Shown here piece by piece: positions 37,147 through 54,304 of a DNA stretch of 64,000 nt (position 1 is the stretch's first letter; each line of letters begins with the position of its first letter). The translations under genes and the position numbers were made by a program. The notes beneath the pieces were generated by a model. The model did not search any database. It saw nothing but the letters and a program-made list of their open reading frames with translations, and was not told the DNA's origin. The stretch spans positions 3,348,001 through 3,412,000 of the forward strand of contig NZ_JAFBCQ010000001.1 in NCBI RefSeq assembly GCF_016907815.1, in the 5' to 3' direction. The DNA comes from Microbacterium aurum (GTDB lineage: Bacteria > Actinomycetota > Actinomycetes > Actinomycetales > Microbacteriaceae).

Positions 37147-37160
37147 GGGGGTTTTTCCTC

Positions 37161-37200
37161 TCGGTGATCGAGTAGCCCGCGCAGCGGGCGTATCGAGATC
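37161..37200. repeat. 40-bp palindromic repeat, copy in the rpsG-fusA spacer
   Basis: An imperfect palindrome centred on a GCAG loop, 36 of 40 bases identical to 61694-61733 in the rpoB-rpoC spacer. The four differences (offsets 9, 17, 27, 37) form two compensated base pairs (9 with 37, 17 with 27). It is a REP-like dispersed element of unknown role. Confidence 0.8.
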
Positions 37201-37206
37201 AGGGGG

Positions 37207-37239
37207 CGGATGCGGGGCCGGATCACGGCCCCGCATCCG
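37207..37239 (-). terminator. 14-bp perfect hairpin between rpsG and fusA
   Basis: CGGATGCGGGGCCG (37207-37220) pairs perfectly with 37226-37239 around GATCA. It lies 12 bases past the rpsG stop on the minus strand, inside the str operon. It has no U-run, so partial termination or mRNA-end protection is as likely as full termination. Confidence 0.55.
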
Positions 37240-37727: not shown

Positions 37728-38096
37728 TCAGCCCTTCTTGGCGCCGTAGCGGCTACGGGCCTGCTTGCGGTTCTTGACGGCCTGGGTGTCCAGGGCGCCG
37801 CGAACGATCTTGTAACGGACACCGGGGAGGTCCTTCACACGGCCTCCACGGACGAGCACGAGCGAGTGCTCCTGCAGGTTGTGGCCCTCGCCGGGGATGT
37901 AGGCGGTGACCTCGGTGCCGTTGCGGAGCTTGACACGGGCGACCTTGCGCATCGCCGAGTTCGGCTTCTTGGGCGTGGTGGTGTACACGCGGGTGCAGAC
38001 ACCCGCCTGCTGCGGGTTCGCCTTCAGGGCGGGCGCCTTGGTCTTGGTGACCTTGGGCGTGCGACCCTTGCGAACCAACTGCTGAATGGTTGGCAC
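37728..38096 (-). CDS. rpsL: Ribosomal protein S12
   Basis: 30S decoding-centre protein that controls accuracy, 122 residues from GTG at 38096, preceded by AAGGAGAGAAC. It begins [11 protein letters not shown] and has the loops TPKKPNSA and [12 protein letters not shown]. The Lys residues corresponding to the two classic streptomycin positions are both present, so the sequence looks sensitive. It is the first gene of the str operon. Upstream reading in the same frame runs into non-coding leader. Confidence 0.99.
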
Positions 38097-38323
38097 GTTC
38101 TCTCCTTGTCGTGCTGCGCGTGGCCGGAACCCTGCGCAGGTGCTGCACGGTGACAGCGATGGTGGTTTCACCACAGATCCACCGGCACGGCGGTGCGCCG
38201 TGCGTTTCGTGGTGGATATGCCGTGGGGGTGACCTGTTCGCAGGCCGGTCCCGAACGTGCGTCTCACGGTGTGTCTGCAGAGCCGGGCACGGCAGACGGC
38301 GCGCGAGAGCGCACACCCGCTCA
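38097..38323 (-). promoter_or_regulatory. Long structured leader of the str operon
   Basis: About 225 non-coding bases between the candidate promoter and rpsL. It contains a perfect 8-bp hairpin, GCACGGCG (38185-38192) with CGCCGTGC (38196-38203) around a 3-base loop. A GTGGT/ACCAC stem lies near 38162-38175. A leader of this size could hold attenuation or ribosomal-protein control, but no known binding site was recognised. Confidence 0.4.
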
Positions 38324-38352
38324 ATACTACGCCGTATGACCGAACCGGGCAA
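38324..38352 (-). promoter_or_regulatory. Candidate str-operon promoter
   Basis: On the minus strand TTGCCC (38352-38347) and TAGTAT (38329-38324) are separated by exactly 17 bases. It is the only good promoter-like pair seen in the 362-base gap between rpsL and the divergent DUF559 gene. Confidence 0.55.
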
Positions 38353-38458
38353 ACGCACACCGCCATCGCTCTCTCCCCAGACGCCGCGGCCGGCCCGACT
38401 GTCCACAGATCCCGCCGCGAGCGGCACCAGAGCGGCGGGCCGCGGCATCCTGAGCACC

Positions 38459-39439
38459 ATGCCCAGACGACCTCGACCGCTTCCCGCGCAGCTCGGCGCT
38501 GCGTTCGGCGTGGCCGACGCCCGCACGACCGGAGCCACCCGCGCGCGGCTGCGCGCGAAGGACCTCGCCCGTCCGCACCGGGGCGTGCGCGTGCGGAACG
38601 CGACCGCGCCGGCATCCGTCGACACCGATCCGCTCGCCCGCGACCGCCGCGTGCGCGCGGCCGTCCTGGCGCGCGTGCAGGCGTTCGAGGTGATCCGCCG
38701 CCCGCACGTGTTCTATACCGGCCGCACCGCCGTCGCGATCTTCGACCGCCTGTTCGACGACGATGACGGCACGGGGCCCCTGCAGGTGGGCGTGTTCGCA
38801 CCGGCACGCGCACCCCGCGTGGCCGGGATCCGGGCGACGCAGACCTCGCCGGGGCTCGTGACGGTCGGCGCGATCGGAGCGCTGCCGGTGGCCAGTCCCG
38901 CGTCAGTCTGGGCGGGGTTGGCCGGCGAGCTCAGCGTCCGCGACCTCGTGCGTCTGGGCGACGCGCTCGTCCGGATCCCGAGGGGCGCGGGCGGGATGCC
39001 GCAGCCACAGGCCCAGCTCGCCACGATCGCGCAGCTGCGCGCCGCGGCGGAGGCGCCTCGCCGCAAGGAGCGTCGCAAGCTCCGCGCCGCGCTCGCGCTG
39101 ATCCGCGTGGGGAGCATGTCGCCGCTGGAGACCGACTTCCGCGTCGACGCCGTGGAGGCAGGGCTGCCGGAACCCGAGCTGGACGTCGAAATGCGCGCGG
39201 CCGACGGCCGGCTGATCGGGATCGTCGACCTCGTGTTCCGGGCGTACCGGGTGATCGTCGAGGTCGAGGGCAGACACCACCGCTCGAGCGATCAGCAGTG
39301 GGAGCGCGATATCGACAAGTACGCCGCCCTCGCGGCGGAGGGCTGGGACGTGATCCGCGTCACCGGCCGGCGCGTCCGCGGCGGGCGGGCCGTGTCGCAG
39401 GTGTCCGCGGCACTGCGGCGTCGCGGCTGGGCGGGCTGA
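38459..39439 (+). CDS. DUF559-domain protein, PD-(D/E)xK nuclease-like
   Basis: 326 residues. The N-terminal half has an AbiEi-antitoxin-like layout (helical start with [21 protein letters not shown], the pattern common in this actinobacterial family). The C-terminal DUF559 domain resembles Vsr-type repair endonucleases: Glu in [10 protein letters not shown], Asp in [19 protein letters not shown] and the Glu of EVEGRHHR give a plausible PD-(D/E)xK active site. ATG at 38459 is likely; an ATG at 38336 is also in frame. Such genes are abundant in Microbacteriaceae and their role is not established. It is divergent from rpsL, and repeats follow it. Confidence 0.75.
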
Positions 39440-39489: not shown

Positions 39490-39509
39490 GGGTTGGGTTG
39501 GGTTGGGTT
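39490..39509 (+). other. Telomere-like GGGTT tandem, possible G-quadruplex
   Basis: Four GGGTT units in a row, giving four GGG runs with TT loops, a textbook intramolecular G-quadruplex pattern on the plus strand. It lies just after the DUF559 gene and merges with the first copy of the 94-bp-spaced repeat. Confidence 0.6.
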
Positions 39510-39653
39510 GGCAGTTGTGGCGGGATCCCGGGGAGGAAACAGCCACGAGTGACAAGGCAAGGGACCCGGGCGTCGTGCGGGGTGCCTTTGGGTGGGTTGG
39601 GTTGGCAGTTGTGGCGGAATCCTGAGGAGGATGCAGCCACGAGTGACAACGCA
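39500..39653. repeat. Two direct repeats of about 60 bp, 94 bp apart
   Basis: Copies at 39500-39559 and 39594-39653 share most of their bases; each starts with GGGTTGGGTTGGCAGTTGTGG and ends in a GCCACGAGTGACAA block. They lie in the 227-base gap between the DUF559 gene and the convergent FHA gene. Two copies without varied spacers do not form a CRISPR. They probably represent a dispersed intergenic repeat. Confidence 0.75.
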
Positions 39654-39666
39654 GTGGCCCCGGGGA

Positions 39667-41646
39667 TCAGCGCTCGATCTGCGCGAGGTGGAACTCCTCG
39701 TCGCCGAGGAAGAAACGCTCCCCGGCGTCGATCTGGCTCCCGGGCTCCACCTCGATCTCGTCGCCCATGAGCGTGCGCACGAGCACGCCGTTGGTCGAAC
39801 CGAGGTCGGTGACCACCCAGGCCTCGTCCCGCCGCTCCAGCCGCGCGTGGGTCTTGGAGACCGTCCGGGCATCGCCCGGCACGGCGACCAGCTGCGCACC
39901 GGGGAAGGCGGCGTCGCCGACGGGTCGGCGCCCCACGATGACCACGTCACTCGTGAGCGGCACGGGTGCCCCGGATGCCGGCACCAGCTGCCAGGTCGGC
40001 TTCTTCGCGCGCCGCGTGATCACGGTCTGGTCCAGATCGTCGTCGTCGGCGAACGGCTCGAGCCGGCGCTGCTGCGCCGACACGGCGTTCAGCGCCGAGC
40101 GGGGCGAGCCGGCGGCGGGCGAGCCGATGACGGCCGACACCTCGCCCGACAGCTCGGGGAAATCCTCCGGTTCGCCCGGCGCCACGGCGAACGCCGGCCA
40201 CGGCCGCGCCCGGCGGCTGGGTGGCTCGGCATCCGGATCCACCGCGGAGCGGACGGCGCGGGGCGCCTCGGTCGTGACGGGCGGCGCCGAGGCGGCGGGC
40301 GCCGGGCGCTCGATGACGGTGTCCGCCGCGGCGTCGACCGGATCGGCGGGCCGTTCGGCACGCGCGGCGCGTGCGGACGGCTGCGCCGCCGGCACGCGCG
40401 TGACCGTGGCACTCTCCGGCAGCGGCACCGCCGTCGAACGCCGGCCGGGGACGACATCGATCGGCGCATCGTCGGCGGTGACCGGAGGCACGACATGGCG
40501 ACCACCGGCGGCCGACGCCGGCAGGAAGTGCGACGGCGCGATCGCGGACACGTCGTCGACCTCGGACGGCCACTTCGCGTCGTCGTCTGCGAGGCCCTCG
40601 GCTGCACCCGGCATGGCGGCGGATGCCGCGGCGCGCTGATCGCCGTCCGCGTCGGCGGCCGGCACGGGCGCCGGCCGGGACGCGACGGCGGGTGCGGGCG
40701 GGACGGCGGAGATCGGCACCTGCGCGGCCGCGGTGGGAGGAGCGGCGGGACCCGGCTCCGACGCACCGGCCGCGGCCGGCGGAACCGCGGACACGGGGTC
40801 GGCGGCGGCGACCGGCGGCACCGGCTCGGGGACGGCGGCCACGGGTGTGGCGGGCTCGGGGGCGGCAGCGGTCGGCGGAACACCGGCGGGCGCGGCAGCG
40901 GTCGGAGGAACACCCGCGGGTGCGGCAGCGGTGCGCGGCGGGGTCGTCGTGGTGTCCGGAGGCGTCCACGCCGGGGCGGAGGTGACCGGCGGCGGTGCGA
41001 ACGCGCTCAGCTGGTCGACGTCCTGCGGCGCAGCGGGCGTCTCCGACGCGCCGGACGCCGAAGGCACAGCGGACGCGGGAGACGGCGAAGACGCGGAAGA
41101 CTCAGACACAGGTCCGGCGCCCCCGGCCGGAGCCGGGTCGGCGGCAGCGGCCCCGGCATCCGCCCCCGGGAACAGCGACGCGAACGGCGACCCGGGCGCG
41201 GGGGTGCGCGGGGCGGAGGCCGCCGGCTCCTCCTCCGCGGCCGGCTCCGGCGGCTTCCACCCGGCGGGGCGCGCGCCGAGCCAGCGCGCGGGGCCGAACC
41301 CGAGGATGCTCGCCCACACGACGAACACGAGCGCGGCCAGCACCGTCATGCCGGCGCCGTAGCCGAAGCCGGAGTTGATGCGGTGCGCCGAGATCACGAC
41401 GAGCACGAACACGACGATGGACAGCGGTGGAATGAGGGCGAGGAGCACCAGCCACGGGCTGAACCCGCCCCAGCGCAGCACGGTCGCGACGTTGAGGAAC
41501 GGGACCCAGCCTTTCCAGGCCTCCTCCCCCATCTTGCGGAACATCGCCCCGAGGGCGAGCGACGTCCACACGTACAGCGCCACGCCGACCACGAGCGAAA
41601 GCAGGCTCAGCAGCGCGACAACGGATTCGTCCATCGGTGCGTTCAT
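39667..41646 (-). CDS. Membrane FHA-domain protein (DUF5684-like N terminus)
   Basis: 659 residues. The N-terminal ~125 residues form about three membrane helices of the DUF5684 type (EEAWKGWVPFLNVATVL, WLVLLALIPPLSIVVFVLVV). A ~420-residue Ala/Pro-rich, probably disordered cytoplasmic linker follows, containing a tandem 10-residue repeat (APAGVPPTAA). The FHA domain lies at about 550-659 with VGRRP, SKTHARL and GSTNG, the residues that bind phosphothreonine. It is the last gene of the kinase operon; the ATG overlaps the previous stop (ATGA). It probably docks a phosphorylated partner such as the operon's kinase, by inference from the FHA family. Confidence 0.9.
   Translation of the reverse strand: MNAPMDESVVALLSLLSLVVGVALYVWTSLALGAMFRKMGEEAWKGWVPFLNVATVLRWGGFSPWLVLLALIPPLSIVVFVLVVISAHRINSGFGYGAGMTVLAALVFVVWASILGFGPARWLGARPAGWKPPEPAAEEEPAASAPRTPAPGSPFASLFPGADAGAAAADPAPAGGAGPVSESSASSPSPASAVPSASGASETPAAPQDVDQLSAFAPPPVTSAPAWTPPDTTTTPPRTAAAPAGVPPTAAAPAGVPPTAAAPEPATPVAAVPEPVPPVAAADPVSAVPPAAAGASEPGPAAPPTAAAQVPISAVPPAPAVASRPAPVPAADADGDQRAAASAAMPGAAEGLADDDAKWPSEVDDVSAIAPSHFLPASAAGGRHVVPPVTADDAPIDVVPGRRSTAVPLPESATVTRVPAAQPSARAARAERPADPVDAAADTVIERPAPAASAPPVTTEAPRAVRSAVDPDAEPPSRRARPWPAFAVAPGEPEDFPELSGEVSAVIGSPAAGSPRSALNAVSAQQRRLEPFADDDDLDQTVITRRAKKPTWQLVPASGAPVPLTSDVVIVGRRPVGDAAFPGAQLVAVPGDARTVSKTHARLERRDEAWVVTDLGSTNGVLVRTLMGDEIEVEPGSQIDAGERFFLGDEEFHLAQIER
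40862..40930 (-). repeat. In-frame 30-bp tandem repeat in the FHA-protein linker
   Basis: A 30-bp unit repeated twice plus a partial third copy encodes APAGVPPTAA-type decapeptides. It could vary in copy number by slippage and so change linker length. Confidence 0.8.
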
Positions 41647-44147
41647 GCGGTGCGCCGCGAGGTGGATGCCGCGCGACTCCCCCTCTCGGTATGGGTCAGC
41701 CTCGAGCTCGTGGACCGCCGACGCCGGAGGGTGCGGCGCAGAGCCGCCGGCACCAGCGACGCCGGGACGAACGATCTCAACGATACGGCTGCGCGCAGCC
41801 GCCGCCAGCCCGTCGGCGCGAAACCGGCGCGTTCGGCGTCGACGATCCGCCAGAACTCGGCTGCCTCGTCGTCGGTGGCTCCCGCCGCCGAGAAGACGGC
41901 GGCGTCGGCGGCGACCGCGAGGGCGCCGGATGACGGGGTGGCCAGCGCCGCGGCGACCTCGGTGCGGGTGGCGGCGGCGGGCGGGGTCCTCCCGGCATCG
42001 GCGGCCGCGTCGAGGAACTCGTCCCACCCGCCGGCGATGCGGGCGGCGGGCGCGGCGGCGCGGCGGCGCCCCCGGCGGCGGAGCGCCTTGGCGCCCACGA
42101 CGAGCAGGAAGGGCCCGAGCACCACAATAGCCACGCCCAGGACGATCCCGCTGATCCGCAGCGTCGCCCACACCCACTCCAGGTCCACGGCCTCGTCGCG
42201 CTCAACGGGCGCGGCGGAGTCCTCCTGCGCGGGGCGCGGCGGCTGCACCTCGTCGACGCCGTTGGGCCGCACCGCGGTGCCGATCGTGGGATCCGGCTGC
42301 TCGGTGAGCTCGCGGCTGGGCGCCTGGGCGTGCTGCGGGGTGACGTCGACGGGGATCCAGTCGCCCGTGGACGCGCGCACCTCGACCCACGCCGACACGT
42401 CGCCGGCGTGACACACGCCGGCGGCGCAGACCGCGGCATCCGGATCGTCGGAGGTGAGCCGCGTGCCGACGACGACCCGCGAGGGGAAGCCGAGCTCGCG
42501 CGCGATGAGCGCCGTGGCGACGGCGAACTGCTCGTCGTCGCCGACGGCGGCGACGTAGTTGTCCGACGCCGCCGCGCGCGGATCGGCCTCGCGCTCGAGG
42601 AGAGCGGTGAACATCGCGTCGATGCGCGCGAGGGAGTGCCCCGATGCGCTGGGCGCGAACTCGTACGCCCCCAGCGCGCTCATCCAGGCGGCGCCCTCGG
42701 CGGGCTCGGTGAGGGCATGGCTGAGGTAACCGCGGTCGCGCAGCAGCGTCACGAGGCCCTCGAGCGCGGCACCGCCGGTGCCCGAGGTGTGCGTCTGCAC
42801 CCAGGTGCGCAGGCTCGCCGGCGCCGCGACCGCGTCCTCGCCGCCGGTGCCGCCGAGACTGCCCTGACCGCCGGGAGCGGCTGCCTCGGCGAGCGCCGGC
42901 GCCTCGGGAACGGCGGCCTGCAGCCGGTAGGTGTCACCGGGGGTCCAGCCTGCGGTCTGCACGGCGGCGGAGAGGTCGTCGCTGACGTAGAACCCGTCGG
43001 CGAGCGCGGCGGCGCGGGCGCCCTCGAAGGTCACCGATCCGACGACGCCGGCAGACGGCATCCACAGTCCCGCGAGCCCGGCCTCGCCGGACGCGCCCAG
43101 CGCGTCGATGACGACGTCGGCGTCGACGGGAGTGCCGGGGCCGGCATCCCGCGCCGAGGCGAGCCTCACGAACGGCGCGCCGGCGGCGGAAGAGTCGGTG
43201 CGGAAGACGGCGCCGTCGTAGCGGTCGAGCACCGCGAGGCGCACCCGCTCGGGCGCCGCGTCGCCGGTCACGCTGTAGAGCACCTGGTCGATCTCACCGT
43301 CGGCGAACAGGGCGCGGTACGAGGCCAGCGGGCTCACCGCCCGCGACAGCTCGACGCGGGGGCCGGTCGCCTCGCGGAGCACGACGCGTTCGCCGGATGC
43401 CGCGGTCGCCGGCACGGCGAGGGCCGCCGCCGCCGCGACCACGACCATGCCCGCCCCCAGCGCCGCGCGACGCGCGTCCGCCGCCGGCCGCAGCACGTGC
43501 ACGCCGCTGCGGGCGGTGGCACGCCGGAGCGCCCGCACGCGCTCGTCGCGGCTGCGCCAGGCCAGCCACAGCACGCCGGCGAGGAGCGATCCGATGCCGA
43601 CGGCGGTCTCGACGGGGGCCGCGAGGGTCAGCGGGCCGACGGTCAGCGGGGCGCTCACCTCGGTGCGCCCGAACAGCAGCCCGAACCCCGACATCCCCAC
43701 CCCCACAGCGACCGCGAGCACCCCGAGCGTGTCGGTGCGCCACGCGAGCAGCAGTGCGGACGCGGTCCCCACGAGGAAGACGATCAGCGCCGGCACCAGC
43801 AGGTTGCGGTACGAGCCGACCGGCAGGTCGACCGTCAGGAGGTCCTTCCAGCCGAACAGCGCACCGGCGATCAGCTCCCCGAGCCCGTGCAGCAGCTGGT
43901 CGGGCGGGCCGACGCGGGACGGCACCGCGAGCGGGACGCCGACGAGCAGCACAGCCGCCGTGACGAGCTCGGCCGCCGCCCACCCGTTCCACCGTCGCCA
44001 CCGCACGAGCACGGCGATCCCGGCGCCGATGAGGGATGCCGCGGCGACGAGCACCACGAACGAGAGCGACCGGTAGATCGGCCAGGCCGCGACGGCCGCC
44101 AGCACCACCGCGACGGCGACGTAGATCGCGCCGGCGAGGACCTTCAC
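41643..44147 (-). CDS. Transglutaminase-like membrane protein with degenerate active site
   Basis: 834 residues. About six N-terminal membrane helices, then a large extracytoplasmic region holding a transglutaminase-core fold near residues 500-620, then one C-terminal helix and a cytoplasmic tail. The fold is recognised from EQFAVATALIARELGFPSRVVVG and AWVEVRASTGDWIPVDVTP. The catalytic Cys position carries Asp538 and the His position Ser585; only the Asp of VDVTP remains. It is therefore probably not an active transglutaminase but a structural or binding module. It overlaps both neighbours by four bases (ATGA). Confidence 0.88.
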   Translation of the reverse strand: MKVLAGAIYVAVAVVLAAVAAWPIYRSLSFVVLVAAASLIGAGIAVLVRWRRWNGWAAAELVTAAVLLVGVPLAVPSRVGPPDQLLHGLGELIAGALFGWKDLLTVDLPVGSYRNLLVPALIVFLVGTASALLLAWRTDTLGVLAVAVGVGMSGFGLLFGRTEVSAPLTVGPLTLAAPVETAVGIGSLLAGVLWLAWRSRDERVRALRRATARSGVHVLRPAADARRAALGAGMVVVAAAAALAVPATAASGERVVLREATGPRVELSRAVSPLASYRALFADGEIDQVLYSVTGDAAPERVRLAVLDRYDGAVFRTDSSAAGAPFVRLASARDAGPGTPVDADVVIDALGASGEAGLAGLWMPSAGVVGSVTFEGARAAALADGFYVSDDLSAAVQTAGWTPGDTYRLQAAVPEAPALAEAAAPGGQGSLGGTGGEDAVAAPASLRTWVQTHTSGTGGAALEGLVTLLRDRGYLSHALTEPAEGAAWMSALGAYEFAPSASGHSLARIDAMFTALLEREADPRAAASDNYVAAVGDDEQFAVATALIARELGFPSRVVVGTRLTSDDPDAAVCAAGVCHAGDVSAWVEVRASTGDWIPVDVTPQHAQAPSRELTEQPDPTIGTAVRPNGVDEVQPPRPAQEDSAAPVERDEAVDLEWVWATLRISGIVLGVAIVVLGPFLLVVGAKALRRRGRRRAAAPAARIAGGWDEFLDAAADAGRTPPAAATRTEVAAALATPSSGALAVAADAAVFSAAGATDDEAAEFWRIVDAERAGFAPTGWRRLRAAVSLRSFVPASLVPAALRRTLRRRRSTSSRLTHTERGSRAASTSRRTA

Positions 44148-45499
44148 GAGGTCACCCCCCGCAGCAGCAGCCCGGCGAGGTCGTCCAGCGTCCCGATCGT
44201 GACGACCGTCAGCGCGCCCGCGACCTGCGTGCGCGGGTGGGCGCGCTCGTCGCAGACGACGGCGATGACCGCGGCATCCGCCGGGAACGCCAGCGCCGCC
44301 TGACGCAGCGCCGCGAGACCGACGTGCGACCCGGTGACCATGACGGCGATCGAGAGCCGCTCGTTCGCCTCCGCCGCCAGGCGGCAGACGTCCGCGAAGG
44401 CCATCGTGTTGGCGAGCCGGTCGACGCCGCTGAACCCGTCGAGCACGACGCGCGGCGCGGTCGCCGGAATGTGCCGGATCGCCCGCAGTCGGCCGCGGAC
44501 GACGCGCGGGATCTCGGCACCGACGACGATGTCGAGATCGCGCGCGTCGTGCACGGCGCGGAGCGTCAGGGAAGCGGCGGCGCTGACGGCGAGCTCGAAC
44601 TCGTCGGCGGAGGCGTACTCCGCCTCCGCGAGCCCCAGGACGACGGCCATCCGCGAGCGCCGGGACTCCTCGTACTGGCGCACCATGAGCTGGCCGGTCT
44701 TCGCCGTCGACTTCCAGTGGATCTGCCGGCGCGAGTCGCCCGGGGCGTATTCACGGATCGCGTGGAAGGACATGTCCGCATCCACCAGGCGCCGGGTGGG
44801 ACTGCCGTCGAGGTCGCGGATGAGACCGGCGCTCGAGGAGGGCACCACGGTCGTGCGGGGGTGGACGTAGAGGTCGTGCACGTCGTCGAAGGCGTGCTCG
44901 CGCCGCAGCATCCCGAGCGGGTCGGAGCGCACCGTGGTGGCCGGGCCGATCCGGACGATGCCGCGCCGCTGCGGGGGCAGCTCGAGGGTCTGCTCCGATG
45001 ACGCCCCGGGCCGGAGCATCGGCACGCCGAACTCCACGAGCCCCGCGCCGACGGCGACGTCGATGCGGCCCGGCAGGGCGATGCGCGTGCCGGTGTTGCG
45101 GACGGTCACGGTCGCGACGGCGGGCGAGCCGGCGACGACGCGCTCGTGCCCGAGGGCGAGGCCGACGTCGTACGCGCGGGCGTGGAAGAGGAACGGGATG
45201 CTGAGCAGCAGCAGCACCAGCGCGGCGGCACCGGCGACGAGCGCCTCGACCCAGCCGAACACCACCCCGGCCGCGAGTCCCGCCGTCGCGGCGGCCAGCA
45301 CGAGCGCACCGGCCGGGCGGATCGTCGCGCGGCACCAGGCGGCGAACGCGCGCAGCCCGGCGCGCGTCGCCGTCCACGCGCGCGAGGCCCGCACGGCGGC
45401 GCCGACGAGGGCGCGGGAGCGCTGCGAGGTGACCTCGGTCCGCTCGCCGGTCAGTCCCCCCGCCGCGGTGCGGGTCAGTCGGGTGTCGCCGAGGGTCAC
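44144..45499 (-). CDS. DUF58 protein
   Basis: 451 residues. Two N-terminal membrane helices at about 62-102, a beta-sandwich region, then the DUF58 core with the signature REYAPGDSRRQIHWKSTAKTG followed by QLMVRQYE. The C-terminal part resembles a von Willebrand A-like fold. DUF58 proteins are almost always encoded next to MoxR ATPases and are thought to be their partners in envelope or enzyme maturation. It is coupled by four-base overlaps to MoxR upstream and the transglutaminase-like gene downstream. Confidence 0.92.
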   Translation of the reverse strand: MTLGDTRLTRTAAGGLTGERTEVTSQRSRALVGAAVRASRAWTATRAGLRAFAAWCRATIRPAGALVLAAATAGLAAGVVFGWVEALVAGAAALVLLLLSIPFLFHARAYDVGLALGHERVVAGSPAVATVTVRNTGTRIALPGRIDVAVGAGLVEFGVPMLRPGASSEQTLELPPQRRGIVRIGPATTVRSDPLGMLRREHAFDDVHDLYVHPRTTVVPSSSAGLIRDLDGSPTRRLVDADMSFHAIREYAPGDSRRQIHWKSTAKTGQLMVRQYEESRRSRMAVVLGLAEAEYASADEFELAVSAAASLTLRAVHDARDLDIVVGAEIPRVVRGRLRAIRHIPATAPRVVLDGFSGVDRLANTMAFADVCRLAAEANERLSIAVMVTGSHVGLAALRQAALAFPADAAVIAVVCDERAHPRTQVAGALTVVTIGTLDDLAGLLLRGVTS

Positions 45500-46461
45500 A
45501 CGCTCTCCCGGCGGGTGGGCGGCGGCACGTCGAGCAGCACCTGGCCGATGACGGCTTCCTGGGTGACCCCGTCGAACTCGGCCTCGGGGTGCAGGATGAG
45601 CCGGTGGGCGAGGACCGCCACCGCGAGCCGCTTGACGTCGTCGGGGGTGACGTAGGTGCGGCCGTGGGCGGCGGCCGATGCACGCGAGGCGCGGGTCAGG
45701 GCGAGGGCACCGCGGATGCTGACGCCGAGGCGCACCTCGTCGGCCGAACGTGTGCCGTCGACGAGACGGGCGATGTAGTCGAGCACGAGCGCGTCGACGT
45801 AGACGTCGGCGGCGAGCTCGGCCATGCCGGCGAGGGCGCCGGGGGTGATCACCGGCGCCAGTTCGGCGGTCGCGACGGCGGCCTGATCGAGGATCCGCAC
45901 TGTGGCGGCGTGGTCGGGGTAGCCGAGGGAGGTGCGCAGCAGGAAGCGGTCCAGCTGCGCCTCCGGCAGCCGGTAGGTGCCCGCCTGCTCGACCGGATTC
46001 TGCGTCGCCAGCACGAGGAAGGGCCGCCCGACGTCGCGGGTGACGCCGTCGATCGTGACACGCCCCTCCTCCATGACCTCCAGCAGCGCGGCCTGCGTCT
46101 TCGGGCTCGCGCGGTTGATCTCGTCGGCGAGGACGATGTTGGCGAAGATCGGCCCGGCGTGGAACTCGAACGCGCCGGTCTTCTGGTCGTAGACCGTGAT
46201 GCCGGTGATGTCGCCGGGGAGGAGGTCCGGTGTGAACTGGATGCGGGTCGTCGTGCCCTGCACCGACTGCGCGACGGCGCGCGCCAGCGAGGTCTTCCCG
46301 GTGCCCGGCACGTCCTCGATGAGGACGTGCCCCTCGCTCAGCATCGCCGTGAGGACGAGCTCGACGACGTGACGCTTGCCGAGGACGGCGCGCTCGACGT
46401 TGTCGGCCAGCTGGGAGAACGTCTGGGCGAACCAGGTCGCCTGCTCGGTCGTGATCGTCAT
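45496..46461 (-). CDS. MoxR-family AAA+ ATPase
   Basis: 321 residues. Walker A EDVPGTGKTSLA, Walker B IVLADEINRA, sensor 1 LATQNPVEQAGTY, arginine-finger region LPEAQLDRFLLR and a C-terminal lid ending at DVPPPTRRESV. MoxR ATPases act as chaperones that assemble or activate partner complexes, usually together with DUF58 proteins. The ATG at 46461 overlaps the upstream stop by four bases (ATGA). Confidence 0.96.
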   Translation of the reverse strand: MTITTEQATWFAQTFSQLADNVERAVLGKRHVVELVLTAMLSEGHVLIEDVPGTGKTSLARAVAQSVQGTTTRIQFTPDLLPGDITGITVYDQKTGAFEFHAGPIFANIVLADEINRASPKTQAALLEVMEEGRVTIDGVTRDVGRPFLVLATQNPVEQAGTYRLPEAQLDRFLLRTSLGYPDHAATVRILDQAAVATAELAPVITPGALAGMAELAADVYVDALVLDYIARLVDGTRSADEVRLGVSIRGALALTRASRASAAAHGRTYVTPDDVKRLAVAVLAHRLILHPEAEFDGVTQEAVIGQVLLDVPPPTRRESV

Positions 46462-49400
46462 GGGGTGCTCTCCTGGGGGGAAGGGGTGCAGCGGGCGGAC
46501 AACTGTGCGGTGGCGTCGTCCAGGCGCCAGCCCTGGCGCGACCAGTCGACCTCGACGCGGATGCCGGTGACCTGCACCGCGGCGTCGGGGACGAGCCAGG
46601 GGTTCTCGCCGGTCGGCAGGGTCGCGCCGTTCTCGTCGAGATAGCTGATGCGACTCGTGTCGAAGGTGATGGCGGCCAGCGATCCGGTGGAACTCGACGT
46701 GCGGGCGAGTTCGCTGCCGCCGGTGCAGGCGCCGAGACCCCAGCTGGCCTGCACCTGGTAGGGCGCGCTGCCGGCGGCAGGGCTGACGGTGCCCCAGGCG
46801 GACTGCCACCAGCCGGAGGTGTGCTCGTAGCGCACCTGGATGCGCGGATCGGCGTCGAAGACGGTGCTGCCGGGCCAGCCGCTGAAGGCGACGACGTTCT
46901 CGTTGGGGACCGTCTCGCGCGAGGTCGGCTGCTGGTCGATCGTCCACGTCGCGCGGTTGCCGTCGACGTGCGCGGTCGGCCCGACGACGAACGTGTACCC
47001 GGTCGGCGCCGCTCCGCTCTGGACGGCCCGGACCTCGGCGGTCGTGGTGGTACTGCCGAACGAACGCCCGTCGAACCACGACTCCGCGCACAGCACGAAC
47101 GTGTAGAGGCGCCCGTCGTCGAGGCCGCGGAAGACCTCGGGGGACCCGTTCGGCGACGTGCGGCAGGTCTGCCCGTCCTGCACGATGCCGTACCGGACCG
47201 TCGCCCCGTCGCCGCCGGGAGTGGCGGCGCCGGTCGCCGTCACGTCGACCTTGCCGCGGCCGACGTTGACCGCCGACAGCGTGAGCGCGGGCGAGGTGGG
47301 TGCGCCGATGCCGTGTGCGAGGACGACCATCGACCCCGGCGCGGGTCCGGGCAGGCCCGGGGGCACGGCGTAGCGCGACAGCGGCGTCACCGTCACCGGG
47401 GTGTCGGTGTTCGCCCCGACCCGAAACGACGCCACCGACACCTGCGTCTGACGCGGATCCACCGCGATCGTCTGGGTCTCCCCCGCCGGGCTGCTGATCT
47501 GCAGCGCACCGGTGTCGGCGGCATCCACCCCTCGGATCGTCAGCGACGCGACCCCGCCCTCGGGACCGGCCACGACGGGCGTTGCGCTCGCGTCGGTGGG
47601 CGCGGCCGGCGGGTCGTACGCCCACGCCGTGGTGCGCACCGCGGCCCGTGAGAAGCCCACCGCGTTCGCGGCGACCACCTCGTAGACGCGCTGCTCGCCG
47701 TTGGGCGCGGCGATGGCGGGGCACGTGCCCTGCGGGCTGCAGGTCGCGACCTTCTGACCACCCTGGCGCACCTCGAACCCGGTGAGGGCGGGGTAGGCGG
47801 CCTGGGCGGGGCCGGGGTCCACCCGCAGCGTCACACTGCCGTCGGCGTAGCCGGACTGCGCGATGCTCGCGGGCGCCTGCGGGAACCCCTGCAGGTCGAG
47901 CAGCAGGCGGCCGTCGCGCGCCGCGGCGCTCTGCCGGCCCTGCGCGTCGCGGACCGTGAAGGTCGCGGTGCAGGTCGCACCTGGCGCGTCATCGCTCCAG
48001 CTCGCCGTGATGCGGGTCGCCGACGCGACCGAGAACGTCACGCCGGTGCACGCGCCCGCGGGGGCGACGGCGACCACCTGCAGCGGAGTGCTCGGCAGCG
48101 GGTTGACCTCGCCGGAGGCGCCCACGACCTCGATCGAGCATGACCTGCCTGAGGCCTGGCTGCACTGCTGCTGCACCGAGCCGCCCTGAGGCAGGGTCGA
48201 GGGGGCGGCGCCCACCCGCAGCGCGATGCGCGCGGGGGTGACGCCGGGGTGGCTGGTCACCTCGACGACGACGCCCTCGACCGTGCCCGGCGCGGCGTCG
48301 TCCCGGCCCCGGACCGTCAGCTGGGTGCCGGCGAGGGTGACGTCGAACGATGCCGCGGTGTCGGCGACCCGGTACTCGATCGCCTCCGGGCGCCCCTGCC
48401 ACGTCGTCATCGACCCGAGGTCGAACACGTGGGTCTCGCCGGGGGCGACCTCGAGGGAGGCGGGCGCGAGCGTCGGCTGCGGGTCGATCGGGGTGACGAC
48501 GACCGGAACCGAGAGCACTGTCCAGTTCGTCTGGCCCGCCAGTCGCACCGGCACGAGGCAGGCGTCGGACCACGGCGCGCCCGCTCCGGCCGTGTACCGG
48601 ATGGTCGTCCCGCTCACGAGCGTGCAGGTGGCCGCCTCGCGCGCGCCCGCGGCGCGCACCGCGGCACCGTCGTCGCCGCCGACCTCGAGCGTCGCCCCGC
48701 GCGGCGTCGCCACCATCGTCGCGAGGTCCGCCTCTGCCTGCGCGTCCTCGCCGACGGTCAGCGGCGCGATGCCCGGGCGCAGCGCGAGAGACACTTCGGA
48801 GGCGGCAGGGATCCGCAGGAACGCGTACGTGGTCACGGTTCCGCCGGCGGTCTCCCCCGTGACGGAGAACGGGATCAGGTGGGCCTTGTCGTCGACGCGG
48901 CCGCGCAGGCGCGCGCCGTCGGCGACGATGCCCGCCGGCGCACCCCACAGCCCGAGGGTGAGCTCCGCGGCATCCCCTCCCGACCACAGCACCTTGCCGC
49001 GCAGCACGTCGATGCCGTCGGCGAGGTCGTCGCGGTTCTCCACCGTGAGCACGGTGTCCTCCACGACCGGGTAGTCCGGCACGCGCTGGCTCACGACCTT
49101 CACGACGAGCAGGCCCCGCGCGGTGTTGCCGGAGGTCGACTCCACGTCGTACAGGAACGACATCGTGCCGGGCTCGGTACCCGCGGCGATCGTGACCGTG
49201 TCGTCGGTGATCGACTCGATGAGGTCGTTCAGCCGCGTGAACTCCGGGGTGGGCGTGCCGTCGAGGGCGAGCTCGGGGACATCGGGGCGCACCGCGACGA
49301 GCGTCAGCGCCCCCTGCATCGGGTCGAGGTCGTTGGCCAGGGGGTGCACCCGGATGACGCTGTCGGCGCCCCCCTGCACGTGGACGTAGTCGGTGTAGGT

Positions 49401-52397
49401 GACCGGGGCCGGATCGGCGTCGCCGCTCAGCACCCCGATGCGCACCGTGCCGGTGCCGGTCGCGCCCTGCGGATCGACGACGCGGTAGGTGAAGGAATCC
49501 TGCCCGTTCGTGCCGGCGAGGCTCGTGTAGACGATCGAGGTGCCGTCGGCGGAGATCACCGCCGAGCCGTGCGTGGGCTGCGTCACGATCCGGTCGAGCC
49601 GCACGACGTCGCCGTCGGGGTCCATCCCGAAGCCGTCGAAGGGAATCGTCGTCGACAGCCCGCTGAGCACCCGGCCGGACAGCCGCGTGGGCAGCGGCTC
49701 GCGGTTCGTGTCGTCGGCGACCACTCGCACGCGCACCGTCGCGATGTCGCCGAGCGCGGGCGCGCCGGTCGTGAACGCCCGATACCCGACGGTGTACTCG
49801 CCCGGCTGGTCGGGGGCGAGGTAGCGCAGGAGGTCGCCGGAGGCGAAGGCGAGCGCGTCGGTGGAGGAGGACTCGATCGACTCCGCGTCCAGCCGCGGGC
49901 GGGTGCCGGGCGCGGCGACGTCGTTGGCGAGCACGGGGATGTCGACCTGCGCGCCGGCGCGGACGATCACGGAGTCGTCCACCGCGATGGGCGCCGCCTC
50001 GGCGGCCGGCGGCAGCAGGTACACCGTCGCCTGCCCCTCCACCTGCGAGCCCTCGTCGGCGGTGCCATCGCTCACGCGGTACGACACGGTGCCGAGCGGG
50101 CCGGACTGTCCCGACGCCGTGGATCCCGACACCCGCAGCTGGCTCTGCCCCACGGCATCCGCCGCCAGCGACGAGCCGGAGGCGGGATGCACGACGACGT
50201 CGCTGAGCAGCAGCACCCGGCCGTTGGGGTTGGAGACGGCCGCGAAGACGTCGACGGTCGCGTCGGCCTGCGGCCGGACGAAGGCGACGACCGGGGCTGT
50301 CGACAGATCCGCGGGGGCGTCGGGGGCGAGCAGCGTGATGCGCACGGTGCCCGTCGCGTCGTGACCGCCGCCGGAGACGGTGACGGTGACGCGGTACGTG
50401 CCGGGCGCGGAGGCGGCGAAGTCGAACTGCGTCGAGCCGCCGACCACCGTCGCCGACGCGGCGGCGTCGTCGAGCACGCGCGCCGCCGTCAGCGCGAGAT
50501 CGCCCGCCGTCCCGGTGACGTGGGGCGCGACGTCCACCGTGACACGGGAGTCGGCGACGCCGGTGACGGCGAAGGACTGCACGACCGGCTGCGCGTCGCC
50601 GCGCACCCGCACGACGAGCTGCTTCGTCGTCGTCGCCCCGCGCGCGTCGGCGACCGTCAGCGTCACCGCGGCGGACTGCTCGTCGGCGGCGCCGGTGTCG
50701 TTGTGCTGGAAGACGACGTCGCCCTGCGGCGTCGTCGCGACCTGGCCGAGCCCCGAGTCGTCGGTCGCCGACAGCAGGAGCACGGGGTCGCCCTCGGGGT
50801 CGACCCAGTCGCCCAGCACCGGCAGGCTGATCGTGCCGCCGGGCGCCACCTCGGGCGAGGGCCAGTCCTGCTGGCAACCGTCCACACCGCACCACACCGG
50901 AGCGGAGTTTTCGCCTTCGCCCACCACCCGCAGCGTCACGGTCGCCGGCTGCGACATCAGCCCGTCCGGACTGGTGCCGTCGGTCACGGCGTAGGAGAAG
51001 CTCGCGATGCCTGCGGCATCCGGCGCCACCCGCACCGCCAGACGCTGTCGGTCATCGGTGGTCGTCACGACCCCGAACGCGGGGTCGAGCCCCGTGACGG
51101 ATGCCGGGTCCACCGCGAGCACGTCCTCATTGGGATCGTGGTCGTTCAGCAGCACGGGAAGGGACACGAGCTCGCCCGGCCGCACGCCGAACGCGTCGTC
51201 CTCCGCGACCGGCGGCCGCGGGTCGATGACCGGCGGCGGTTCCTGCTCGTTGGTCGTCGACGCCGTCTGCACGTCGTCGTCGAGGTTCCAGTTCTGACTC
51301 GACGGCAGCAGCGCCCCGTCCGGAGCCGACCAGACCCAGCCCGACCGTGCGTCGTTGAGCACGAGGGAGTCCCCCGCCGCGACGAAGGTGGGCCGGCGCT
51401 GGGCCGGCAGCGTCAGGCCGCCGTAGTCGAGCGTGACGTCGCCGCCCGTCGAGGTCCAGAGGGTCCCGGGGCCCGCACCCTCGGGCAGCCACGCCGCCGA
51501 GACGGTCTCGCCGTCGACGACGGGACGGGCGGGCGTTCCGCGCGAGGTCGTGCTGTCGCCGAAGACGCGCTCGGCCGTCCCGTCCGCGACGTCCAGCCGC
51601 ACGAGCCCGCTCTCGTCAGCGAGGTAGACGGCATCGCCGGCGACGGCGCGGCTGACCGCGACGGCGCCCGCCGTGCCGGTGCCGCCCGCGGCGTCCGCGG
51701 TCCAGAACCTCCCCGCGGCGGTGTCGAGCAGCACCCAGGCGTCGCCGGCCGCTGTCAGCGCCAGCGCGTCCGCGTCGGCCTGGACCTCGTCGGAGCGCTC
51801 CACCTGCCCCGACGCGATGTCCACGCGCACGACGGTGCCGGCATCGGCGGAGTAGCTGAACACGTCGCCGTCGGCCGTCACGGAGATCGCGTCGGAGGTG
51901 TACGGCGCGGCATCCTCGGCCTCCGCCTCCTCGGCGCCGCCGGCGCGCGGATCGATCTGCGCGAGCGTGCCCGTCGACAGCCGCCCGGCATACACCGCCC
52001 CCGCGTCGGTGCGGTACGCGACGTAGTCGCCGACGCTGTCGGTCTCGGCCGTGCCCGCCGGTGCGGCGCTCGCGTCGCGCAGCCCCTCGGTGTCGAGGTC
52101 GATCGGCACGGCGTCGTCGATGCGGATGACCTTCGAGTCGCTGTCGGTGAACATGTACGCGCCCGTCGGGGCCGTGACGATGCGGCTGGGGTTGCTGACG
52201 GCGCGCACGGTGTCGAGCTCGCCGATCGCCGTGTTCACGCGGGCGTAGCGCAGTCCGTCGGCCTGCAGGACCCACGCCGTGACGTCGCGGGGCGGGGTCT
52301 CCTGCGCATCCAGTCCCGGCCAGGCGATGCTCACCCCCGCGACGAGCGCGATGACGGCACCGGCGGCGCTGAGACCCGCGACGGTTCCCCGGCGCAT
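46458..52397 (-). CDS. Giant Ig-like / fibronectin type III surface protein
   Basis: 1979 residues. One N-terminal membrane helix (about 7-28), then an extracellular region. Residues about 30-420 look like a beta-propeller (repeated VTAPTGAYMFTD-like strands). At least five Ig/cadherin-like modules follow, with VLxNDxDP or related motifs (VLLNDHDPNED, VLGDWVDPEGD, VLANDVAAPG, FGMDPDGD, PLANDLDPMQG). C-terminal fibronectin type III modules include GYADGSVTLRVDPG and RVYEVVAANAVGFSRAAV. There is no LPXTG; the N-terminal helix probably anchors it. The ATG overlaps the kinase stop in TGATG. In the related Bifidobacterium cluster the Fn3 protein is an extracellular binding partner; the ligand here is unknown. 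Confidence 0.9.
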   Translation of the reverse strand: MRRGTVAGLSAAGAVIALVAGVSIAWPGLDAQETPPRDVTAWVLQADGLRYARVNTAIGELDTVRAVSNPSRIVTAPTGAYMFTDSDSKVIRIDDAVPIDLDTEGLRDASAAPAGTAETDSVGDYVAYRTDAGAVYAGRLSTGTLAQIDPRAGGAEEAEAEDAAPYTSDAISVTADGDVFSYSADAGTVVRVDIASGQVERSDEVQADADALALTAAGDAWVLLDTAAGRFWTADAAGGTGTAGAVAVSRAVAGDAVYLADESGLVRLDVADGTAERVFGDSTTSRGTPARPVVDGETVSAAWLPEGAGPGTLWTSTGGDVTLDYGGLTLPAQRRPTFVAAGDSLVLNDARSGWVWSAPDGALLPSSQNWNLDDDVQTASTTNEQEPPPVIDPRPPVAEDDAFGVRPGELVSLPVLLNDHDPNEDVLAVDPASVTGLDPAFGVVTTTDDRQRLAVRVAPDAAGIASFSYAVTDGTSPDGLMSQPATVTLRVVGEGENSAPVWCGVDGCQQDWPSPEVAPGGTISLPVLGDWVDPEGDPVLLLSATDDSGLGQVATTPQGDVVFQHNDTGAADEQSAAVTLTVADARGATTTKQLVVRVRGDAQPVVQSFAVTGVADSRVTVDVAPHVTGTAGDLALTAARVLDDAAASATVVGGSTQFDFAASAPGTYRVTVTVSGGGHDATGTVRITLLAPDAPADLSTAPVVAFVRPQADATVDVFAAVSNPNGRVLLLSDVVVHPASGSSLAADAVGQSQLRVSGSTASGQSGPLGTVSYRVSDGTADEGSQVEGQATVYLLPPAAEAAPIAVDDSVIVRAGAQVDIPVLANDVAAPGTRPRLDAESIESSSTDALAFASGDLLRYLAPDQPGEYTVGYRAFTTGAPALGDIATVRVRVVADDTNREPLPTRLSGRVLSGLSTTIPFDGFGMDPDGDVVRLDRIVTQPTHGSAVISADGTSIVYTSLAGTNGQDSFTYRVVDPQGATGTGTVRIGVLSGDADPAPVTYTDYVHVQGGADSVIRVHPLANDLDPMQGALTLVAVRPDVPELALDGTPTPEFTRLNDLIESITDDTVTIAAGTEPGTMSFLYDVESTSGNTARGLLVVKVVSQRVPDYPVVEDTVLTVENRDDLADGIDVLRGKVLWSGGDAAELTLGLWGAPAGIVADGARLRGRVDDKAHLIPFSVTGETAGGTVTTYAFLRIPAASEVSLALRPGIAPLTVGEDAQAEADLATMVATPRGATLEVGGDDGAAVRAAGAREAATCTLVSGTTIRYTAGAGAPWSDACLVPVRLAGQTNWTVLSVPVVVTPIDPQPTLAPASLEVAPGETHVFDLGSMTTWQGRPEAIEYRVADTAASFDVTLAGTQLTVRGRDDAAPGTVEGVVVEVTSHPGVTPARIALRVGAAPSTLPQGGSVQQQCSQASGRSCSIEVVGASGEVNPLPSTPLQVVAVAPAGACTGVTFSVASATRITASWSDDAPGATCTATFTVRDAQGRQSAAARDGRLLLDLQGFPQAPASIAQSGYADGSVTLRVDPGPAQAAYPALTGFEVRQGGQKVATCSPQGTCPAIAAPNGEQRVYEVVAANAVGFSRAAVRTTAWAYDPPAAPTDASATPVVAGPEGGVASLTIRGVDAADTGALQISSPAGETQTIAVDPRQTQVSVASFRVGANTDTPVTVTPLSRYAVPPGLPGPAPGSMVVLAHGIGAPTSPALTLSAVNVGRGKVDVTATGAATPGGDGATVRYGIVQDGQTCRTSPNGSPEVFRGLDDGRLYTFVLCAESWFDGRSFGSTTTTAEVRAVQSGAAPTGYTFVVGPTAHVDGNRATWTIDQQPTSRETVPNENVVAFSGWPGSTVFDADPRIQVRYEHTSGWWQSAWGTVSPAAGSAPYQVQASWGLGACTGGSELARTSSSTGSLAAITFDTSRISYLDENGATLPTGENPWLVPDAAVQVTGIRVEVDWSRQGWRLDDATAQLSARCTPSPQESTP

Positions 52398-53527
52398 CAG
52401 TGCGATCCCGTCCAGACGATCGCGAACGCGGTCGCGGCGAGCGCCAGCAGCACGGCGCTGGAGGCGACGATCCACGGCCACACGTGCCGGCCGGAGGCGC
52501 CGGCGATGGCCTCGTCGTCCTCGTTCGTCGGCGAGCGGCGCACGGTGTCCGCCCCGGCACTGCGGCGCCGGCCGTCGTGCTCGACCCGGCTGCGCACCGG
52601 TCCCCGCACCGTCGTGTCGGCGAAGTCGACGGCGTCGGATGCCGGCATCCACTCGTCGGTCGGAACCTCCAGCGGCGTCGGCGCCAGCCCAGCCGCCCGC
52701 TGCACGGCGCGCACCGCCTCGCCGAACTCGCGGGCGGAGGCGAATCGGCGATCGGGGTCACGGGTCATCGCGGTCGCGAGCACGTGCTGCAGATCGTCGG
52801 GGACGTCCGGCCGCGCGATCGGGACGTAGGTGGCGCGCGCGATACGCCGGCGCATGAGGTCGCGCGTGTTCTGATCCTTCTCGCGGCGCTCGAACGGGCT
52901 GTGCCCCGCCAGCAGCGAGTACACCGTCGCCCCGAGGCTCCAGACCTCGCTCGCCACCGTGCCGCCGGTGTGCTCGGCGACGACCTCCGGCGCGCTCCAC
53001 GGGATCGACATCGCGAGCACATCCGGCGCCGCGCTGCGCACGAGCGAGGAGGAGATGCCGAAGTCGGCGAGCACAGCGGAGCCGAAACTCGTCACGAGGA
53101 TGTTGCTGGGCTTGATGTCGCGGTGGATGAGCCCGGCGCGGTGCGCCGACTCGAGCGCGCCCGCCAGCCGCACGGCGATCGCCATGACCTCGTCAACCGG
53201 CATCCGCTCGATGCGGTAGCGCTGTGCGAGGGACCCCGGGCAGTACTCCATCACGATGTAGGGGCGGCCGTCGGCGGAGATGCCCGCCTGGTACACGGTC
53301 ACGATCGCCGGATGCGCCGACAGGTGCGCGAGCACGTCGGCCTCGGCGTTGAACATCCGCAGCAGATCGGGGTCGTGCTCGTTGGCCGGCAGCACCTTGA
53401 CCGCAACCGCACGCCGCGGCATGTCCTGCTGGTAGAGGAAGACGTCGGCGAATCCGCCCGAGCCCAGCGGCCGGACGTAGTCGAGGCCGGGGAGCAGAGG
53501 CGGCGCGGAAGGGAGCCTGCGCGTCAT
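52397..53527 (-). CDS. Membrane Ser/Thr protein kinase
   Basis: 376 residues. Complete Hanks-type kinase: glycine loop GSGGFADVF (22-30), Lys44 in VAVKVL, catalytic HRDIKPSN (135-142), ADFGIS (154-159) and SAPEV (178-182). A juxtamembrane segment contains TTVRGP (about 306-310), a possible phosphothreonine/FHA docking site. One membrane helix lies at about 350-371, with only five residues outside, so there are no extracellular PASTA domains. AAGGGG precedes the ATG. It is the first gene of a six-gene operon with its sensor function perhaps supplied by the Ig/Fn3 protein. Confidence 0.96.
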   Translation of the reverse strand: MTRRLPSAPPLLPGLDYVRPLGSGGFADVFLYQQDMPRRAVAVKVLPANEHDPDLLRMFNAEADVLAHLSAHPAIVTVYQAGISADGRPYIVMEYCPGSLAQRYRIERMPVDEVMAIAVRLAGALESAHRAGLIHRDIKPSNILVTSFGSAVLADFGISSSLVRSAAPDVLAMSIPWSAPEVVAEHTGGTVASEVWSLGATVYSLLAGHSPFERREKDQNTRDLMRRRIARATYVPIARPDVPDDLQHVLATAMTRDPDRRFASAREFGEAVRAVQRAAGLAPTPLEVPTDEWMPASDAVDFADTTVRGPVRSRVEHDGRRRSAGADTVRRSPTNEDDEAIAGASGRHVWPWIVASSAVLLALAATAFAIVWTGSH

Positions 53528-53638: not shown

Positions 53639-54304
53639 CTAAGGTTCGGCCAACCCGGGGTCGGCGTTCGGGTCGAACGGGGCGTCCAGCGACCGCGTGA
53701 GCTCTTCGAGCATCGCCGCGATCTGCGGCTCGACGTACTGGCTCACCGCCGCCTGGATCCGCAGCCGGTGGTGCAGGAGCACGGTGCAGACCTCACGGCC
53801 GACCATGTTGGCGTAGTCGTCGGCGAGCGCGACCTCCTGCCGCAGCGCGACCTTCGCCTCTTCGCTGAGCGGCGGCAGGGCGGGGATGTCGGCATCCACC
53901 TCTTCGGCGAGACCGCCGAGCGTGAAGAGGAACGGGGCACCCGGGATGGGGTCGGGATCCAGCGGCAGCCCCTCGAACTCCGGGTCCAGACCCTCGGCGG
54001 GACGGTAGCTGCGCGCGCGGTTACGGGCCGCCTGCTGGTCGAGTTCGGCCTGCAGCATCGGAAGGTTCCGGGACGTGTAGTCCGCGACGGCGTGGTCGAC
54101 AATCGTCTTGATGCGCGTGGACAGGCCGTGCTGCACGCCGTGCGGGACATCGGCGCCGAGGCCCGCGGCCGACAGCACCGGGGAGCCGAAGCAGCGCCGG
54201 CAGGGGGCGATGCGGCCGCGGTGCGTCGCCGGCTCCCAGCGCGGCAGCCAGCGCAGCCAGGCATCCACTGCCTGGCTGACCTGGGTCTCGATCGACCGCT
54301 CCAC
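53639..54304 (-). CDS. Hypothetical protein with CxxC motif
   Basis: 221 residues from GTG at 54304; no better start lies downstream and the upstream frame is low-complexity repeat. Soluble, mainly helical and acidic. It has a CRRC pair at about 37-40 followed by further helices, and no signal peptide or membrane segment. A second half rich in Leu and Glu (LSEEAKVALRQEVALADDYA) is probably coiled. No family is recognised. It stands alone, immediately upstream of the kinase promoter region. Confidence 0.65.
   Translation of the reverse strand: MERSIETQVSQAVDAWLRWLPRWEPATHRGRIAPCRRCFGSPVLSAAGLGADVPHGVQHGLSTRIKTIVDHAVADYTSRNLPMLQAELDQQAARNRARSYRPAEGLDPEFEGLPLDPDPIPGAPFLFTLGGLAEEVDADIPALPPLSEEAKVALRQEVALADDYANMVGREVCTVLLHHRLRIQAAVSQYVEPQIAAMLEELTRSLDAPFDPNADPGLAEP

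Follow-up and report, generated by a model that had tools for sequence, protein, structure and literature searches.

Work on the PFNA gene cluster has treated it as a means by which bifidobacteria detect human cytokines. In Bifidobacterium it comprises pkb2, fn3, aaa-atp, duf58 and tgm, an optional prpC, a hypothetical gene and fha. The cluster was described as "unique to bifidobacteria" (PMC8430577) and as "found only in bifidobacteria" (PMC10688814), and prpC was reported from certain bifidobacterial species only (PMC8430577). In the present work, a PFNA-like six-gene operon of Microbacterium aurum was analyzed in a window (the whole stretch of DNA studied) of 64,000 nucleotides, positions 3,348,001 to 3,412,000 of contig NZ_JAFBCQ010000001.1 (assembly GCF_016907815.1). 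The mycobacterial moxR operon, whose organisation resembles PFNA according to a review, shares with this operon the placing of MoxR beside DUF58; unlike it, by the description in that review, it has a vWA gene after DUF58 and lacks the set of kinase, immunoglobulin-like (Ig) protein, transglutaminase and FHA protein (PMC12067865). The main interest of our results lies in an apparently dead transglutaminase, the spread of the module beyond bifidobacteria, and a test of its proposed switch on one residue.

The operon occupies the minus strand from 53527 to 39667 and encodes, in order, a Ser/Thr kinase, an Ig-repeat protein, a MoxR ATPase, a DUF58 protein, a transglutaminase-like membrane protein (TGM) and an FHA protein. 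Pfam assigned to these Pkinase, Big_9 (bacterial Ig), AAA_3 of MoxR, DUF58, Transglut_core, and DUF5684 with FHA (the FHA protein was run with three extra N-terminal residues). The original prediction, a six-gene operon running from a kinase to a terminal FHA gene, was thus borne out in coordinates, strand and domains. It had also described overlaps of TGATG or ATGA at all five junctions; every junction does overlap, but they read TGATG, ATGA, GTGA, GTGA and ATGA, so that GTG is the start codon of two genes. Because the same layout was seen again in relatives, it is not due to chance. Of the predicted Ig/Fn3 protein, the Ig part was found as Big_9; the protein was submitted to Pfam in three pieces, none of which gave an Fn3 domain at E values up to 1, so that the "Fn3" label is based on resemblance. 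When solved structures were searched by sequence, no match was obtained for the Ig protein and one weak match for the FHA tail. The dN/dS ratio was low in those operon genes that were measured.

Compared by BLASTP with the operon of Bifidobacterium callitrichidarum (L217, whose TGM is 100% identical to a protein of that species), the five core proteins were homologous and collinear (E 5e-41 to 5e-127), in agreement with the predicted PFNA type. The values were 43% for the kinase (E 5e-72), 56% for MoxR, 31% for DUF58 and 29% for TGM (E 5e-41), and the Ig protein matched the FN3 protein with 25% over 1646 amino acids (E 1e-53). The two systems also share the FHA gene at the end, an optional prpC, a TGM without catalytic Cys and a linker threonine before the FHA domain. 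Differently, the window kinase has no extracellular C-terminal region, its second gene product has no Fn3 by Pfam, and its FHA protein is anchored by DUF5684, whereas the bifidobacterial FHA protein has 214 amino acids and only an FHA domain assigned. Judged from these comparisons, the operon is a PFNA-type variant and not PFNA in the strict sense, given the missing sensory region of the kinase.

Operon structure was compared across actinobacteria, and three layouts were distinguished: type A with the kinase first and PP2C last (the window's type), type B with PP2C first, and type C with the kinase last. In a scan of named genomes, 72 of the best 80 loci contained the complete five-gene core, which was found besides Microbacterium in Cryobacterium, Demequina, Leifsonia, Agromyces, Leucobacter, Homoserinimonas, Scrofimicrobium and others. 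Genomes with a DUF58 profile match numbered 144 among 248 sampled from the order (E up to 1e-30) and 23 among 246 sampled from the class (E up to 1e-50). When regions from 20 of the 144 matching genomes were examined, an Ig gene was present in 19, a MoxR match in 19 and a kinase in 18 (one on the opposite strand); the core is therefore widespread in the order, in several layouts. Within the genus, a close DUF58 match (E up to 1e-100) occurred in 129 of 198 genomes, so about one third of them are without the window's operon type. The genus loci were 80 of these matches, hand-picked down the list, and 57 loci including the window formed one clade (FastTree support 0.945), referred to below as the window clade. 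The named and other locus sets overlap (e.g. L135/L057 and L143/L055), and counts over both, such as the 196 TGM copies below, are not independent. The M. aurum genome itself holds a second, paralogous operon of type C at about 219-236 kb (L035, L036), which encodes an Ig protein, MoxR, DUF58, TGM, FHA, its own PP2C, a further FHA and a kinase with an ectodomain. With the core present in so many actinobacterial genera, a general role in the envelope gains in likelihood, and other model organisms become available for PFNA. In the TGM of L080 and the Ig gene of L117 the match was split over two reading frames, and these genes may be broken or misassembled.

The label "transglutaminase" could not be kept at face value, since the active site is gone. 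TGM has the TgpA fold with its N-terminal transmembrane region; this comparison with the PDB covered the VIA-align list, beyond which other fold families may match. TgpA of Pseudomonas aeruginosa belongs to the PA2875-2873 operon, in which we take PA2875 to be MoxR and PA2874 to be DUF58. TgpA has a Cys-His-Asp triad (PMC3507681); in the window TGM, the Cys is replaced by Asp538 and the His by Ser585, and only the Asp is kept. The catalytic Cys was missing in 196 of 196 operon TGM copies and in all 120 homologues of the Bifidobacterium TGM among the matches listed, 17 of which were unreadable at the His and Asp positions. As a control, Cys and His were both kept in 119 of 120 TgpA homologues among the matches listed. 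Each homologue list gave 120 proteins, out of 226 matches for the Bifidobacterium TGM, 267 for the Bifidobacterium FHA protein and 266 for TgpA. In the TGM tree, all 54 PFNA-type segments were set apart from 14 TgpA segments (support 0.75). The M. aurum genome gave seven transglutaminase-core matches; among those other than the operon TGM, the active site was read in L235, and the patterns did not match L236, L237, L238 and L240. Both Cys and His are present in a canonical TgpA that the genome encodes separately, and the TGM of its type-C paralogue has retained His and Asp, not Cys.

At the position of the Cys the residue was variable (D, E, S, A, Q or G). Across 44 aligned TGM sequences, GD, EQ, H477 and H504 were invariant and the ectodomain pair C574/C579 nearly so, and the GDxEQ segment with similar SH and GH motifs recurred in the Bifidobacterium TGM profile. 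Taken together, PFNA-type TGM appears to be a pseudoenzyme under purifying selection. If this is true, the bifidobacterial PFNA "transglutaminase, presumably a cysteine protease" would have no such activity, and a pseudo-transglutaminase at the operon centre changes what should be assayed. Erythrocyte protein 4.2 is a catalytically dead transglutaminase serving as a membrane scaffold; it is eukaryotic and offers an analogy only. An enzyme of another kind, with an active site rebuilt around GDxEQ, H477 and H504, would explain why these residues are invariant and why the motifs recur in Bifidobacterium, but so variable a residue at the Cys position ill suits a new nucleophile, and we consider a rebuilt enzyme unlikely. 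In a literature search made without most subscription journals, and without the original PFNA description (Anaerobe 2018), neither an earlier report of a dead PFNA transglutaminase nor one of PFNA outside bifidobacteria was recognised; in the main text of PMC6803598, neither "cysteine" nor "active site" occurs.

The second conserved feature was a threonine in the linker of the FHA protein, Thr541 in the window. All 83 type-A FHA proteins in the alignment carried it (L073, whose contig ends inside the FHA gene, was left out), and it was conserved as strongly as the FHA binding residues, with an acidic residue at -2 in 99% and Arg at +5 in 94%. In the Bifidobacterium set the motif reads DWD[SG]TVLS, with Thr in 118 of 119 among the matches listed, and similar pre-FHA motifs were seen in many of the other families examined (not counted). 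No clear linker motif was found in L230, L231 and L162, nor in the second FHA proteins of type-C loci. Phosphorylation of Thr14 in OdhI alters its conformation and releases its target, as reported in PMC9769921. GarA and OdhI resemble the window FHA protein in that a Thr precedes the FHA domain by about 25-30 residues; unlike them, the window protein is DUF5684-anchored, is encoded beside its own kinase, and scored 21.9 bits, far below the OdhI family cut-off of 200. By analogy, Thr541 looks like a GarA-like switch residue, and phospho-dependent binding by the FHA domain is plausible. This threonine would allow the whole signalling model to be tested on one residue, both in bifidobacteria and in Microbacterium.

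The kinase retains the catalytic motifs of an active Hanks-type enzyme (VAVK at 41, HRD at 135 within HRDIKPSN, DFG at 155). In the transmembrane scan, zero residues followed its transmembrane helix, and all 89 type-A kinases ended at or within 14 residues of the helix. By comparison, 85-128 residues lay outside the membrane in type B, type C, two Bifidobacteriaceae and 8 of the 11 other kinases measured, and 84 and 87 in L212 and L214 (2 of 71 named). Left out of this count were L166, L217, L218, L226 and L232 (mismatch to the HRD pattern), L227 (no transmembrane helix found) and L078 (contig without kinase). For the type-A kinases, sensing therefore has to come from partner proteins, and the predicted sensor candidates are the TGM ectodomain and the Ig protein, which is encoded by the gene overlapping that of the kinase. 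The activation loop (about residues 155-182) ended in MS[IV]PW[ST][AS]PE in 14 of 15 type-A loops, one being unreadable. The usual kinase activation-loop end carries a threonine, and activation of the type-A loop may follow a non-classical route.

The original prediction had proposed that the FHA domain binds the phosphorylated juxtamembrane segment of the kinase, at a TTVRGP site. The site is present, but its two threonine positions carried Thr in only 12% and 23% of 56 clade kinases; it was rejected as a conserved phospho-site and is unlikely to be a general FHA docking site. The segment does hold conserved motifs, namely VDFxDxxxRGPxRS, with Arg in 100% of these kinases, and an acidic motif (DEDT) whose last position was Thr in 77% and Ser or Thr in 88% of the clade, and Thr in 16 of 16 kinases of a second Microbacterium group. 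However, the window kinase itself lacks the Thr of the acidic motif, and a third type-A group of 17 kinases has not kept it. On this balance, a juxtamembrane ligand in place of the FHA linker seems improbable to us.

No PP2C gene was found in the operon or in the 9 kb downstream, as the original prediction had noted. Contrary to what had been supposed, its absence is not unusual for the cluster, given that prpC is optional in bifidobacteria (PMC8430577), and four PP2C genes lie elsewhere in the M. aurum genome. Of the 57 window-clade loci read, 53 extended for 1.5 kb or more beyond the FHA gene and none of these had PP2C, compared with 32 of 33 type-A loci outside the clade (24 Microbacterium, 9 other genera), where it followed TGM or FHA. 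Six PP2C queries were run by tblastn over the clade; no downstream relic was recognised (lowest E 0.15), and the same queries recovered 32 of 33 control loci. The absence is genuine and clade-wide, not peculiar to the window genome, and since PP2C-bearing relatives surround the clade, a single loss would be the simplest reading. A compensating relocation was rejected: by hand count, 55 clade genomes held 2-4 PP2C genes each (180 in total, mean 3.3) and 23 genomes with an operon PP2C held 2-5 (91 in total, mean 4.0), which fits loss instead. The 79th genome counted (G239) held 2, and no FHA or PP2C gene was recognised in its operon. Of the 72 named cores, 32 had PP2C, 27 lacked it although 5 kb or more of sequence was available, and 13 could not be judged; the 27 were mostly Microbacterium, with L185, L197 and L214 as exceptions outside the window clade. 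In the order survey it was present in 10 of 20 regions. PP2C is an unstable operon member which comes and goes.

Starting from the gene order, PFNA homology, active-site loss, threonine invariance, missing kinase ectodomain and clade-wide PP2C absence, all read from sequence, we infer who phosphorylates whom, a closed-linker switch, a signal and the client proteins. The operon would encode an envelope-sensing phosphorylation module of PFNA type, in which a GarA-like FHA protein would serve as the switch and a dead TgpA as the scaffold; we put this model forward with slightly less than even confidence. Outside signals would be sensed by the Ig-repeat protein, the pseudo-transglutaminase or both, and relayed through the membrane to the kinase, which would phosphorylate the membrane-anchored FHA protein at Thr541. 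The phosphorylated linker would then fold into its own FHA pocket as in GarA and OdhI, with GarA autoinhibition as the model for the closed linker, and would change what the FHA protein holds. Its likely clients would be the MoxR-DUF58 pair, which may act on the membrane complex, and the pseudo-transglutaminase, in which the TgpA fold would be retained for scaffolding or for ligand binding, without transglutaminase chemistry. Where PP2C is encoded it would reset the switch; in the window clade other phosphatases of the cell would have to serve.

Several points weigh against this model. Its phosphorylation and binding steps are predictions, the acidic kinase motif of the window lacks the Thr kept in most of its clade, and the linker Thr could be conserved for another reason. 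The sources consulted name substrates of Pkb2, and the FHA protein is not one of them. Six of 90 type-A loci (L118, L119, L123, L124, L125 and L130) had no recognised FHA gene; five of them keep PP2C and L130 has neither, and therefore the FHA switch cannot be essential. In the wider sense, the chances seem evenly balanced that PFNA-type operons are an ancient receptor-kinase module belonging to the order Actinomycetales, with a dead TgpA at its core as envelope receptor or scaffold and with a kinase and a GarA-like FHA readout, and not a bifidobacterial invention for host communication. Beyond the original prediction, this analysis adds the dead TGM, the invariant linker Thr and the type-A kinase without ectodomain; lack of prpC was already known in some Bifidobacterium.

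A host-interaction module has been proposed for bifidobacteria, with the Ig/FN3 protein as a binder of host molecules and the kinase as a relay for host immune signals; in B. longum, FN3 fragments were reported to bind cytokines and TNF-alpha to induce expression (PMC10688814, PMC12607495). However, the same core was found in Cryobacterium, Demequina, Leifsonia, Agromyces, Leucobacter and many Microbacterium, and the window Ig protein has no Fn3 by Pfam. The habitats of these genera are mostly environmental. Host sensing would then be only a later use in bifidobacteria, and as the general role of the operon we regard it as quite unlikely. Less probable still is a MoxR-centred conflict (defence) system, of which examples were described in actinobacteria (PMC7159879) and to which a weak bpMoxR Pfam match of the window MoxR might point, because no effector gene was recognised in the operon, its content is constant over a large clade and its place beside rpsL fixed in most of it, and dN/dS is low in the genes measured.

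Table 1. Coordinates of the operon genes, sites of interest and neighbouring genes in the window
Feature	Position	Strand	Description
Ser/Thr kinase, 376 aa	52397..53527	-	Kinase domain 18-263; one transmembrane (TM) helix 349-376; no ectodomain (Pfam, TM scan, motif positions)
TTVRGP, kinase residues 305-310	52598..52615	-	Within conserved stretch VDFxDxxxRGPxRS
Large Ig-repeat protein, 1979 aa	46458..52397	-	N-terminal TM helix 4-29; several Big_9 domains (Pfam, TM scan)
MoxR-family AAA+ ATPase, 321 aa	45496..46461	-	Pfam AAA_3, E=3.5e-62
DUF58 protein, 451 aa	44144..45499	-	Two TM segments; GTG start overlaps MoxR stop (Pfam, TM scan)
TGM, 834 aa	41643..44147	-	Seven N-terminal TM segments and one C-terminal (658-690)
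GDDEQF, TGM residues 536-541	42525..42542	-	Asp538 at catalytic Cys position of TgpA
Ser585 in SAWVEV of TGM	42393..42395	-	Catalytic His position
FHA protein, 659 aa	39667..41646	-	Membrane-anchored DUF5684 part, long linker, FHA domain ~570-640
Thr541 in DLDQTVITRR of FHA protein	40024..40026	-	Linker threonine, 31 residues before GRRP of FHA core
UP, conserved upstream gene	53639..54304	-	No Pfam match; ends ~110 bp before kinase start
DUF559/MTES_1575-like gene	38090..39439	+	Between operon and rpsL; Pfam DUF559, E=2e-5
rpsL (ribosomal protein S12)	37728..38105	-	Upper bound approximate
fusA	35032-37236		After rpsL, downstream of operon

The UP gene was present in 29 of 29 Microbacterium genomes queried and immediately preceded the kinase in 52 of 57 clade loci (hand count), once on the opposite strand. 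In 5 of 26 genomes outside the window clade, rpsL was located within the 1.5-kb flanks of UP, and therefore the clade operon appears to lie between UP and rpsL. Between the FHA gene and rpsL, two 78-nt direct repeats (39493-39664) were 86% alike, and weaker copies occurred at two other places in the genome. Together with the DUF559-like gene they look like an insertion. The gap from FHA to rpsL was 232-400 bp in eight of the closest relatives, 1186 bp in L062, and 3660 bp in L055, where similar-looking repeats were also seen.

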